Positions 15,175-51,310 of a stretch of DNA of 64,000 nucleotides are shown here, piece after piece. This DNA is from Rhodamnia argentea (lineage: Eukaryota; Streptophyta; Magnoliopsida; Myrtales; Myrtaceae). Below the pieces are notes generated by a model that saw nothing but the letters and a program-made list of their open reading frames with translations, did not search any database and was not told where the DNA came from. The stretch covers positions 3,292,001 through 3,356,000 of the forward strand of contig NC_063152.1 in the NCBI RefSeq assembly GCF_020921035.1, in the 5' to 3' direction. The first letter of the stretch is position 1. Each line of letters begins with the position of its first letter. Position numbers and translations under genes: made by a program.

Positions 15175-16095
15175 GAGAAAATTTCATTTAAGGGCCCGAA
15201 ATGCTCTCGATTTTTCAAATAAGGGCTCGAAGTAGACGTTATTTTAAATAAGGGCCTGGATATGGGTATTTTAATCATTTTCCCTTTTTTTAAACTTTTT
15301 CCTTTCTTTTTTTCTTTTTTCCTTTATTTTCGCCCTAGCTCACCATGGTCGGCCACCGGTGAGGGAGGTAGCGGCCCCGCTCGGGCGAGCCGAGGGCGAC
15401 CCTCGCCGAGGCGAGCAGAGGGCGGCCCTCGTCGGCTTCGCTTGGCCTCGACTCGCCAGAGCGAGGTCAAGGTCAGCCCTTGGCTCACCCGGGCGTGGCC
15501 AACGGGGGTGAGATCCGCCTCAACGCCTTCTTCATCGCGATGCTCGCATTCACGGCAAGGGCCGCCATGTTCAAGGCCGTTAGGCGGTGCTAGAGCCTCG
15601 ACTTGGGGAGCACGAAGTAGATTTGGTTTTGCATGAGCTCGTCCTCGTTGGCTAGGGCGGGATGAACTCCTCACAAGGAGTTGCGGATGAAGCCCGAAGA
15701 AGAAGACGTGGACAATGTGCTCTCGGATTTGAAATTTTCGTGAGGGCTAGAGGCCCTAGCTAATGGCCGGCGGGGTCGCAGCCCTTGCCGCCCCTGCCTA
15801 ACCTCCCACCAATGGTAGGCCAATGACCACAAGCGGGAGAGGTTGCCCTCTCGTTGTGTGGCTTTTTTTTTCCTTTTTTTTTAAATTAGAAAAAAAGGAA
15901 AAAATGAATAAAAATTTAAAAGTGAAATGACGAAAATACCTTTCAGGCTAGACACTTTTTTGAAATATTATAGCAACTTTAGGCCCTTAATTGAAACATA
16001 TTATGTCATTTCGGGCCTTTATTTGAAACAAGGTCCACTTAGGGCCCTTATTTGAAAAAACAAGAGGACTTCAAGCCATTTTTTGGATTTTTCCC
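15175..16095. mobile_element. Mutator-like TIR element, 921 bp, with a captured gene fragment
   Basis: It starts GAGAAAATTTCATTTAAGGG and ends GGATTTTTCCC; the arms repeat AAATAAGGGCC-type phrases in inverted order over about 110 bp. Flanking 9-mers are TAATTATTT (15166-15174) and TAGTTATTT (16096-16104), a 9-bp target duplication with one mismatch, the Mutator hallmark. There is no transposase. The interior holds a broken PADRE/DUF4228-like segment (15520-15730), so the element is of Pack-MULE type. Confidence 0.75.
15520..15730 (-). pseudogene. Captured fragment of a PADRE (DUF4228) gene
   Basis: On the minus strand, after a stop, one frame reads DELMQNQIYFVLPKSRL, then another stop, then ALNMAALAVNASIAMKKAL. 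The Q-IYF-LP-S-L core followed by the LAVNAS helix is the pattern of the C-terminal half of plant PADRE/DUF4228 stress proteins. At least two in-frame stops show it is not functional. It lies wholly inside the TIR element. The assignment rests on remembered family resemblance. Confidence 0.6.
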
Positions 16096-16705
16096 TAGTT
16101 ATTTTAAATAAGGGCCTCACCTTGCCGACCAATCAGCCAAATTTTTCAGCTAATAAAGGGCATTTTTTTAAAAAGTATAAATTAATATGATTTGTTGTTA
16201 AATTAAATTAAAAGAAAAAATAAAAACAAAAATTTTTTTTAAAAAAAGGAAAAAACATAGGTGGGAGGATTGACCCCTCGCTTGTGGTCGCCATCCCTCC
16301 CGTGGCCGTCGAGGTTGCCGACGACTGGGCGAGGGCTGGCGGCCCCGCCGACCAGGGGTGAGCGCCCGCTCCCCGGCCCTCTCTTTAGGTCGATGGGGTT
16401 GCTAGCTCTCATCGAGTTGTCTACTACCCCAATGGCTATAGCCGCCGTCCGCCTATGCGTTTATTTGTTTTTTTTTTTTTACTTTTTTTTAAATCTCTAA
16501 AACAAAAAGAAAAAGGAAAAAGTAAGTTAAAAATAGTAAATTACCAAAATGCCCCTTATAGGCACTCCATGCCCTTATTTGAAGCAATATGTACTTTGGG
16601 CCTTTTTTGACACAATGAGGGCATTTTTTTTTAACACAATGAGGGCATTTCATGCCATTATTTGAGAAAACGAAGGCACTTGGGGCCCTTTGTTGGAATT
16701 TTTGT

Positions 16706-48851: not shown

Positions 48852-49065
48852 CAATAATCTATATCTATATCTTCCTATTTCTATTTATCCAAAAGAACAA
48901 AAGGAGACTTTTGGAGAACACGTGTCACCCTCTCCCTCCCTTCCCTTTTTTTTTTTATCATCTCTCCTTTTTTTTCTCCTTTTTTTTTTATTGGTTTTTC
49001 CTCCTTAATTTATAAACTTTGCTTTTTTCCATTTTCTCAATTTTACTTTTAAGTGTCAAATTTTA

Positions 49066-50577
49066 GGGAAATTTTCAAAAAAGGGCCCCAAGTGCGTTGA
49101 GTTTCTCAAATAAGGGCTTGAAGTGGATCATGTTTCAAATAAGAGCCTGAAGTGTTCTATTTGTTTCAAAAAAGGGCCTAACCAAAGGTGTTTTTCGTCT
49201 TTTTATATTTTCTGACTTTTTCCTTCCCGTTTTCCCTTTTTTTTTCTCTTCCTCCCTGCTGTTTGCCTTCATGGTCGTCTTCTTCTTTTCTTCATCTTCT
49301 CTCTTCTTGAACCTTCAAACTTCCCTAAACCGTCTCTACCCCCTCGCTCCTCTAAAAATGACCATTGCCAGCCGGCCCCTTTGCCAGAAGCTGTCGAATT
49401 ACAGTCGTGCCCCGACTAAGTGGCCGCCGATGATCACCCTCTTTACGGTGGCTCTAAACGAGCAGTTCGAGCTCACTTGAAGCCGTCCACCAAGTGCAGG
49501 TAGGTCTTGAGGTTATCCAGCTAGTTCACGTCTCGCTTCAACGGCACATAGCACAAAAGTTTTCGTGGGTTCAGAACCACGAGCTACTCGGTGCCCGGGC
49601 AGTTGTTCCCATATGTTGATGGAATGAGTGAAGCCATTGTAAAGGCACCTACAGTTGGTCAGAACTCAGAAGTAGAGTTGACTTCCTAGTTAAGCTATTT
49701 TTTCCCCTGTTCATACACGGATCTCACTGAGGTACAGCGAGTCCCAGCTGCTGAGCCTCAGCTCCCTCTCCTCCTTAGCAAACTCCCATTGTGTCCACCA
49801 TGCGCCTCCGAATCCAGCTTGGCAAACGCAGCACCCGGATATCCCAGTCGCTGAGGACGCTGTCGCCGGCGTCGGCCCGGTCGATGACGTACTCGGGCGC
49901 TTTGTTTATCAGGTCATCTAAGTTGACGGTGCACAAAACCTTGATCGCTGCTCCTCAAGGCAACACCGAAAGCTTCAGTTGCCCATCCGTGGGGTCCCGA
50001 AGGAGGTGACAGTGACAAGTAGGGCCGCGCTCCCGAAGGCCGTCTTCAGGTATACGATGAGCACTGCCAGGGCCGCGCCCAAGCTGTGGCCAGCTCGTTG
50101 TCGTAGGACGGCAGGAGCCGCGAGGTCTCCTAGCACACCATCGCCGGTGAGCACGGGCAATTCGAGGCGTGCGACGTGCACAGGCTTTGGAACCCACTCT
50201 CCATCATGGGCGCTTCCAAGAGAGCGGGGATGGGAGCGAGCCGCTGGGTCGGAGGCGTGCTTTTTGTAATTCGACGACTTCCAGCGGGGGGCGGGTCGGC
50301 CATGGTCGTTTTTGTAAAGAGGAGCGAGGGGTAGAATGGAGTAACAGTTCAGAGAAGTCTGATGGTTCAAGAAAAGAAGGAAAGAAGAAGACAGCGATGA
50401 TGGTAACCAGCGGGGAGGAAGAGAGAAAAAAAAAGGGAAAAGAATGAAAAAAAAAATCCCAAAATGTAAAAAGACGAAAACACCGTTGATTAGGCCCCTT
50501 TTTTGAAATAAAAATGGCACTTTAGGCCCTTATTTGAGAAAGTCAAGGTACTTGGGGTCCTTTTTTGAATTTTTCCC
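49066..50577. mobile_element. Pack-MULE type element, 1,512 bp, carrying a lipase fragment
   Basis: Perfect 9-bp target duplication CAAATTTTA (49057-49065, 50578-50586). It starts GGGAAATTTTCAAAAAAGGG and ends TGAATTTTTCCC. The inverted arms are about 330 bp long: outer parts repeat CAAATAAGGGC phrases and inner parts the mirrored block CTTGAACC...AAACGACCATGGCC-like on each side. Between them lies a minus-strand lipase fragment. No transposase was seen, so it depends on a helper elsewhere. Confidence 0.82.
49470..50240 (-). pseudogene. Captured class-3 lipase (DAD1-like PLA1) fragment
   Basis: Minus-strand reading gives, in order, AGHSLGAALAVL with the lipase box GHSLG, VTVTSFGTPRMGN, then a stop, then after a shift KVLCTVNLDDLINKAPEYV (Asp region), ELRLSSWDSLYLSEIR and finally LDNLKTYLHLVDGF (catalytic His region). 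This is the order of the C-terminal half of chloroplast-type DAD1-like phospholipase A1 proteins. Several stops and frame changes show it is dead. The N-terminal half and transit peptide are missing. It lies wholly inside the TIR element. Confidence 0.75.
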
Positions 50578-50641
50578 CAAATTTTATTGACCCTCCATTG
50601 TTTGGCATTTTATGTGTTGGCGAACTGAATTAAATAACATA

Positions 50642-51310
50642 GAAAAAATTTCAAATAAGGACCTAAAATGCTTTCATTTTTTTCAAATAGAGGTCTGAAG
50701 TGAATCTTATTTCAAATAAAGGCCTAAAATGCCTTATTTGTTTCAAATATGGCCTGATGAAGGGCGTTTTTGTCATTTTTCTTTATTAACTTTCTTTTTC
50801 CTTTTTTTTCCTTTGTTTGAGCCTTTGAGGGTTGCCGCCCTCGCCGGCCAATGGGTGAGGCTAGCAAGCTAACCGCTAGCAACCCTTGTGCAAATATGGC
50901 GAGGCATTCCTCATGGCCACAAGGGTCGCTTGTGGCCATTAAGACGAGCCTTTGCAGGTCATAGTCGAGGTCGGCCCCAAGTGATGCCTCGCCAGATCTA
51001 GGCGAGGGTCGCTAACGGCCAGCCAAGTGTAGCAAACCTCAACGGCCGAAATAAAGGACAAAAAAAAGAAGGGAGAAAAAAAAAAGAAAATGAAATGACG
51101 AAAATGCCATTAGTCGGACCTTTCCTTGTTGCAAAGAGCAAACTATTTAAAAGAAGACCCATTTCGGATCCTTATCTGAAAAAATTAGAGCACTCCAGGC
51201 CATTCTTTGTTGCAAAAAGTCAACTTCATGCTCTTATTCGAAACAATGTTCGCTTTAGACCTTTATTTGAGAAAATGAGATCATTTCAAGCCATTATTTT
51301 GAACTTTCCC
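50642..51310. mobile_element. Mutator-like TIR element of the GGGCC family, 669 bp
   Basis: It starts GAAAAAATTTCAAATAAGG and ends TTTTGAACTTTCCC, with the same inverted CAAATAAGG/CTTTATTTG arms as 15175-16095 and 49066-50577. Flanks are AATAACATA (50633-50641) and AGTAACATA (51311-51319), a 9-bp target duplication with one mismatch. The core is GC-rich (GCCTCGCC, GGCGAGGG) and no host gene was recognised in it. Confidence 0.72.

Follow-up and report, generated by a model that had tools for sequence, protein, structure and literature searches.

Results

A 1,512-bp Mutator-like element carries pieces of two host genes

Positions 49066–50577 of the window, by which we mean the whole 64,000-nucleotide stretch analyzed, are occupied by a 1,512-bp non-autonomous Mutator-like element (MULE), which has CAAATTTTA on either side and the termini GGGAAATTTTCAAAAAAGG and GGGAAAAATTCAAAAAAGG. 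The perfect 9-bp target-site duplication (TSD) claimed in the original prediction was confirmed (9/9 positions; Table 1), and its length lies in the range of 9–11 bp given for MULEs in the accessible part of PMC3310237. The element also has long terminal inverted repeats (TIRs) of the 100–500 bp usual for MULEs, and these are common to a family. Inverted arms of about 330 bp had been predicted; they are real, with 88% identity across the outermost 52 aligned positions and 75% across 283 aligned positions further in, but their innermost ~60 bp are lipase sequence, which leaves at most about 290 bp for the MULE TIR itself. A 68-nt inverted pair of 85% identity, detected at the arm ends, takes in 8 bases of the TSD. 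Similarity to family members without the lipase/hydrolase cargo stops by about the first 200 bp of the TIR; the queries of the TIR family search were themselves just 200–207 bp long. Furthermore, no transposase was seen by eye in the element's listed frames, the longest of which is 181 aa (three frames were scanned with Pfam), in agreement with the earlier claim. The carriage of host-gene fragments without a visible transposase is a feature of Pack-MULEs.

Table 1. Features of the element in window coordinates; L040 and L050 are the lipase and hydrolase donor loci
Feature	Position	Strand	Evidence
Left TSD CAAATTTTA	49057..49065	.	9/9 same as right copy
Left MULE TIR	49066..49353	+	Outer ~200 bp common to other family members; rest only in this cargo group
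Lipase piece 1	49354..49513	-	81.6% over 174 aligned positions to L040 4422-4593
End of alpha/beta-hydrolase-like gene	49520..49712	+	85.5% over 193 aligned positions to L050 2218-2402
Lipase piece 2	49720..50217	-	75.9% over 523 aligned positions to L040 4613-5132
Pfam Lipase_3 (PF01764) match, GHSLG to FGTPRMGN	49978..50094	-	25.7 bits, cut-off 22
Second, inverted lipase 3' end (stop codon and 3' UTR), inner right arm	50266..50321	+	L040 4414-4472, 48/59 identical
Right MULE TIR	50322..50577	-	Arm alignment and TIR family search
Right TSD CAAATTTTA	50578..50586	.	9/9 same as left copy

The captured lipase sequence covers the coding region in its 3' half together with the stop codon, and continues for up to about 55 bp into the 3' UTR. 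Piece 1 runs from the start of the 3' UTR through the stop codon into C-terminal codons, among them the YLHLVDGF region, and a 35-nt block in it, at HLVDGF, is identical to the donor; piece 2 spans the Asp motif region and GHSLG and reaches back to about VESGFQSL of the donor. The GHSLG, Asp, and His regions of the predicted minus-strand lipase fragment are all present and the PF01764 match is over its cut-off, but the Asp and His regions lie in frames other than that of GHSLG, and the fragment is not continuous, being split by a piece of a second gene. The frame of the Lipase_3 match is shifted by a 19-bp loss just upstream. As an explanation of the ~200-bp interruption in the lipase, a GT...AG intron on the lipase strand (by eye) was considered and rejected: the donor has no such interruption, and the interrupting sequence matches a hydrolase frame on contig 5.

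This second piece, a patch of ~190 bp, consists of C-terminal codons, the stop codon, and the start of the 3' UTR of the alpha/beta-hydrolase-like gene, and it lies within the lipase fragment on the opposite strand. By eye in the alignment, about 11 bp of lipase are gone at the patch and a few filler bases stand at its edges.

Donor genes of the lipase and hydrolase pieces

Among the class-3 lipase loci taken from this genome, the closest to the cargo is a single-frame gene of 452 codons, which lies on the same contig as the window, some 23 Mb away at C3 26.697 Mb. It has a Lipase_3 domain (118.8 bits) and matches two plant phospholipase A1 (PLA1) structures, PDB 7x0d (E 1.5e-46) and 2yij (E 8.8e-45), the PLA1 match beginning at residue 73. 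The parent lipase gene was therefore found, and its one open frame supports the original prediction that the parent was intronless. For the DAD1-like, chloroplast-type identity also proposed there, the observations reach as far as plant PLA1 similarity. Elsewhere on C3, at 11.22–11.51 Mb, class-3 lipase matches are repeated in the manner of a tandem array, with recurring stops in the six-frame reading that may be introns read through.

The hydrolase donor is a frame at C5 4.798 Mb. Its last frame, the one scanned, scored 20.6 bits against PF12697 (E 8e-4), short of the cut-off of 26.3 bits, and so the Pfam Abhydrolase cut-off was not reached. No TIR match was found in 9 kb around the lipase donor or in 5 kb around the hydrolase donor. 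An identifiable donor gene that is not itself associated with a transposable element is a further Pack-MULE feature.

The lipase 3' end is present twice, in inverted orientation

As listed in Table 1, the inner right arm holds a second lipase 3' end, which is inverted relative to the first. Its local alignment to the donor scored 60, compared with a maximum of 26 for shuffled sequence. The right arms of all nine copies of the element (see below) hold 34–73 bp of this inverted 3' end, with scores of 37–70 against shuffled maxima of 20–26 (30 shuffles each), and in 6/9 the match starts at one and the same donor base, L040 4414. Donor matches were likewise obtained for eight of the nine left arms tested; two of these eight start at L040 4414 and the others 8–40 bases later, whereas the ninth arm belongs to one half of a split copy and is without the lipase 3' part. 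Since the innermost ~60 bp of both arms are lipase, the ~330-bp arms are composed of a MULE TIR and captured host sequence.

The same chimera occupies at least nine genomic sites

When the genome, 346.7 Mb in 74 contigs, was searched with the interior only, all 12 candidates were scored and gave 14 matches, which resolved into nine insertions (one of them split in two) and the two donors. The same lipase/hydrolase chimera therefore occurs at nine or more sites, while other members of the TIR family are without the lipase cargo. The original prediction had overlooked the hydrolase piece, the inverted lipase 3' end, this nine-member cargo group, and the wider TIR family. It had named lipase sequence running past the TIR borders in other copies as evidence that would speak against it; in the nine-copy alignment, where two copies are without a recognizable left end and ~60 bp of lipase lie inside the arms, none crosses the termini.

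The TSD is perfect in four of the nine insertions (window, C11 7.83 Mb, C2 27.5 Mb, and C3 5.67/5.68 Mb). Two copies passed over by the automatic TSD finder were read by eye as 8/9 (C2 34.37 Mb) and 7/9 (C10 15.8 Mb), and three had no usable TSD: C3 26.43 Mb and the C5 copy (both without a recognizable left end), and C11 13.17 Mb (poly-A). Because copies with the same chimera have distinct TSDs, transposition must have followed capture, as is characteristic of Pack-MULEs. The C3 5.67/5.68 Mb copy is cut in two by inserted DNA that has TG/CA ends and is flanked by the 5-bp direct repeat GTCTT, as would be left by an LTR element; the small half of this copy (C3c) was left out of the tree, the arm test, and the hydrolase table. 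The 19-bp loss ahead of GHSLG is common to four copies (window, C11 7.83, C10, and C3 5.67), and an overlapping gap occurs in the C2 27.5 Mb copy. The hydrolase piece was detected in 9/9 copies, of which C11 13.17 Mb holds just 84 bp. The distance to the respective donor is 8.8–15.1% for the hydrolase pieces and 11.8–19.0% for the lipase pieces, which fits a later patch and equally a lower number of CpG sites.

The captured sequence has diverged and decayed

The nine copies are monophyletic in the tree, with ultrafast bootstrap support of 90, and their neighbor is the lipase donor at C3 26.70 Mb. The donor tip is 0.023 long, and the copies are 0.142–0.253 from the donor. Pooled over 36 pairs, copy–copy divergence at codon positions 1, 2, and 3 was 974/6158, 1073/6170, and 1208/6160 (0.158, 0.174, and 0.196), and after donor CpG columns were dropped it was 611/4748, 803/5250, and 716/4549 (0.129, 0.153, and 0.157); the divergence is nearly even over the three positions, with the highest pooled value still at position 3. 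The corresponding values for the donor versus its paralogue L011 were 47/207, 31/205, and 84/205 (0.23, 0.15, and 0.41). Parent-frame stops occur in 8/9 copies, the exception being C2 34.37 Mb. Transitions outnumber transversions in every copy, with 10–30 CpG-type transitions in the nine long rows; the least decayed row is that of C2 34.37 Mb, with 10 CpG-type changes compared with 17–30 in the others. Thus, neither codon-position divergence nor parent-frame stops revealed coding constraint on the copies, and we read the cargo as apparently neutral and decayed.

Plant substitution rates are 7e-9 to 1.3e-8 per site and year. The copy branch, taken as the mean copy–donor distance minus the donor tip, is about 0.18, which at such general plant rates would mean roughly 14–26 million years; this is not a firm age, because the rates are not specific to this plant and CpG decay is strong.

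The TIRs belong to a large family with other gene-like cargo

With up to two mismatches, the TIR-end pattern GGGAAAWTTYCAAAAAAGGRCC matched 574 forward and 522 reverse sites in the genome (1,096 in total), compared with 1 and 0 for the reversed control. Among the first 100 matches listed, at least 18 TIR pairs face each other within 7 kb. Nine other members were read, namely eight of these 18 pairs and one further pair, and their TSDs were perfect in seven (9 or 10 bp), 8/9 in one, and in poly-A in one.

Gene-like cargo was recognized in eight of these nine members, in four by direct scan and in four by similarity to those. One carries a GH3 match over the cut-off (E 4.6e-10). Another has HIRAN-like cargo (E 1e-4, under the cut-off), and a second element is 94% identical to it. 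Patatin-like cargo was found in the C3 26.60 Mb member, which matched PDB 1oxw (E 6.4e-11) and had no Pfam match, and GH28-type cargo in one member, where a rhamnogalacturonidase model gave E 5e-7, far below its cut-off, and Pfam gave none; two further members are 82–83% identical to the latter. In the ninth member, nothing was recognized in the two frames scanned. The patatin-carrying member and a family element at C8 25.83 Mb are 95% identical over 1.3 kb, and the C8 copy is 4.3 kb long, apparently through extra interior DNA. This 4.3-kb TIR pair was considered as an autonomous partner and rejected, given the 1.3 kb that it has in common with the patatin-carrying element and no transposase-like frame detected by eye.

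At least 150 MULE-domain matches exist in the genome (150 of 474 candidates scored). One MULE transposase domain, at C3 8,705,881–8,706,177 in a 779-codon frame with one TAA, sits about 4.2 kb inside an exact TIR end at 8,710,395–8,710,416. It is possible that this frame and TIR at C3 8.71 Mb represent an autonomous partner; by a hand estimate from counts that are lower bounds, ~0.2 such pairs would be expected by chance. The window itself holds more of the family. A second element lies at 50642–51310, 55 bp from the right TSD of the first, and has the TSD AATAACATA/AGTAACATA (8/9) and an inverted repeat of its own in the interior. Another, at 15175–16095, has TIR similarity to the family and the TSD TAATTATTT/TAGTTATTT (8/9 by eye), with a solo end nearby at 16560–16702.

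Discussion

The TSD, the TIR family, the mobile copies, the donors found, and the lack of a visible transposase support the Pack-MULE call of the original prediction. We consider it very probable that the element is a non-autonomous Mutator-like Pack-MULE that captured parts of two host genes, presumably by repair, transposed repeatedly, and underwent coding decay.

From the joints, we infer capture by repair with template switching. During repair of a break or gap inside a shorter MULE, synthesis would have switched to the lipase gene just beyond the stop codon and proceeded through the 3' half of its coding region. The short hydrolase patch would have taken the place of ~11 bp of lipase, in the same event or at a later break; the patch could be younger than the lipase capture. 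The inverted 3' end may have arisen when one TIR arm and ~60 bp of the lipase next to it were copied to the opposite end of the element; two ends priming at one donor site would explain it equally well. Transposase supplied in trans would finally have spread the finished element. A plausible reading, to which we give somewhat less than an even chance, is that all joints go back to a single repair event in which the template was switched several times in series, including a switch from arm to arm by which host sequence was added to the TIR. If it is true, this plant Pack-MULE arose by gap filling, and the accessible parts of PMC8277862 and PMC3310237 leave open whether plant Pack-MULEs do so.

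The same Pack-MULE might instead have acquired its cargo when adjacent element insertions were mobilized together with the DNA between them. For DNA captured by plant TIR elements, such joint mobilization is the alternative found in the literature and, as far as the available text of PMC8903248 and PMC13317346 goes, it has been argued for Pack-CACTA and other Pack-TYPE elements. Here, however, the lack of a TIR match in the 9 kb and 5 kb around the two donors speaks against it, and a single event of this kind would not be expected to combine two unlinked donors with an inverted 3' end; we therefore regard it as improbable.

As to function, no positive evidence was found in the sequence comparisons made here, and most likely the element does nothing for the plant. 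A regulatory role is conceivable, in which transcription from the TIRs would give RNAs that are sense for one donor and antisense for the other, and small RNAs cut from these would lower the lipase and hydrolase genes. The two cargo genes are on opposite strands, so that either transcript would be antisense to one donor, and the accessible part of PMC8277862 mentions that Pack-MULE small RNAs have been observed. The window copy and its short flanks yield 1,551 21-mers. Perfect matches to the lipase donor number 15, rising to 31 when up to one mismatch is allowed and to 103 when up to two are; for the hydrolase donor, there are 0 exact matches and 26 with at most one mismatch. The 15 exact 21-mers and the 103 with at most two mismatches would make a small-RNA effect on the lipase donor physically possible. 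Nevertheless, the copies are well diverged from the donor (tree distance 0.142–0.253) and show no coding constraint, and the 35-nt perfect block may be due to chance at such identity, so a regulatory element appears quite unlikely.

About as unlikely, or slightly more so, is the idea that the C2 34.37 Mb copy (L046) is, or is becoming, a host gene for a shortened lipase that retains GHSLG and the Asp region and has no in-frame C-terminal His block. This copy has a 204-codon open frame with a lipase score of 95.1 bits, no parent-frame stops, and the shortest distance to the donor (0.142), but its frame stops in antisense hydrolase sequence ahead of the HLVDGF block, and its differences from the donor at codon positions 1, 2, and 3 (21/207, 17/207, and 35/205) show a mild skew that belongs partly to the donor's own branch.

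Finally, a segmental or processed lipase duplication that came to lie between repeats by chance, with no transposon involved, has a negligible probability: the donor is a single frame, so missing introns by themselves say nothing against retroposition, but nine sites carry the same two-gene chimera, 4/9 have perfect TSDs at the TIR termini, and 7/9 of the other TIR-family members read have perfect TSDs as well.

Read as a Pack-MULE, the element is of a well-known kind. It resembles the Pack-MULEs of rice, tomato, and other plants in its 9-bp TSD, long TIRs, host-gene fragments, multi-copy spread, and lack of a visible transposase, its size being 1.5 kb. Gene sequence acquired within extended TIRs is already known for Pack-MULEs from the accessible part of PMC3310237. 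Compared with the known elements described in the literature available, the present element differs in two respects: a hydrolase patch of opposite orientation interrupts the lipase fragment, and both arms carry the lipase 3' end as an inverted pair; no description of this lipase/hydrolase cargo was found in that Pack-MULE literature, in which lipase-related papers were compared at the level of titles. According to the excerpts of PMC3310237, the PM-ZIBP family of tomato likewise amplified a captured gene fragment whose parental gene was identified; it comprises 14 copies and has repetitive motifs inside the TIR, which we count as a likeness. Thirteen of the 14, however, have tandem TIRs, with one cargo gene, whereas the present element has single TIRs and two genes.

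In the parts of PMC8277862 at hand, animal Pack-TIRs explained by gap filling or FoSTeST are similar to the scenario proposed here in that repair or replication switches to templates at unlinked loci and transposition with distinct TSDs follows; they are mostly hAT and Tc/mariner elements, unlike the present plant MULE. The same excerpts report that gap filling has been proposed for Pack-MULEs and leave the validity of the models in plants open, and a 2026 review (PMC13317346, available in part) terms capture by DNA elements transduplication and allows that other mechanisms may remain undiscovered. Against this background, the joints of the present element are unusually readable. An intact lipase donor and the hydrolase donor still reside in the same genome as the copies, nine copies permit each joint to be read as ancestral or derived, and the TIR family offers hundreds of ends and several other kinds of gene-like cargo. 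With these donors, the nine copies, and the large TIR family, the genome is well suited to testing the ways in which Pack-MULEs acquire genes.
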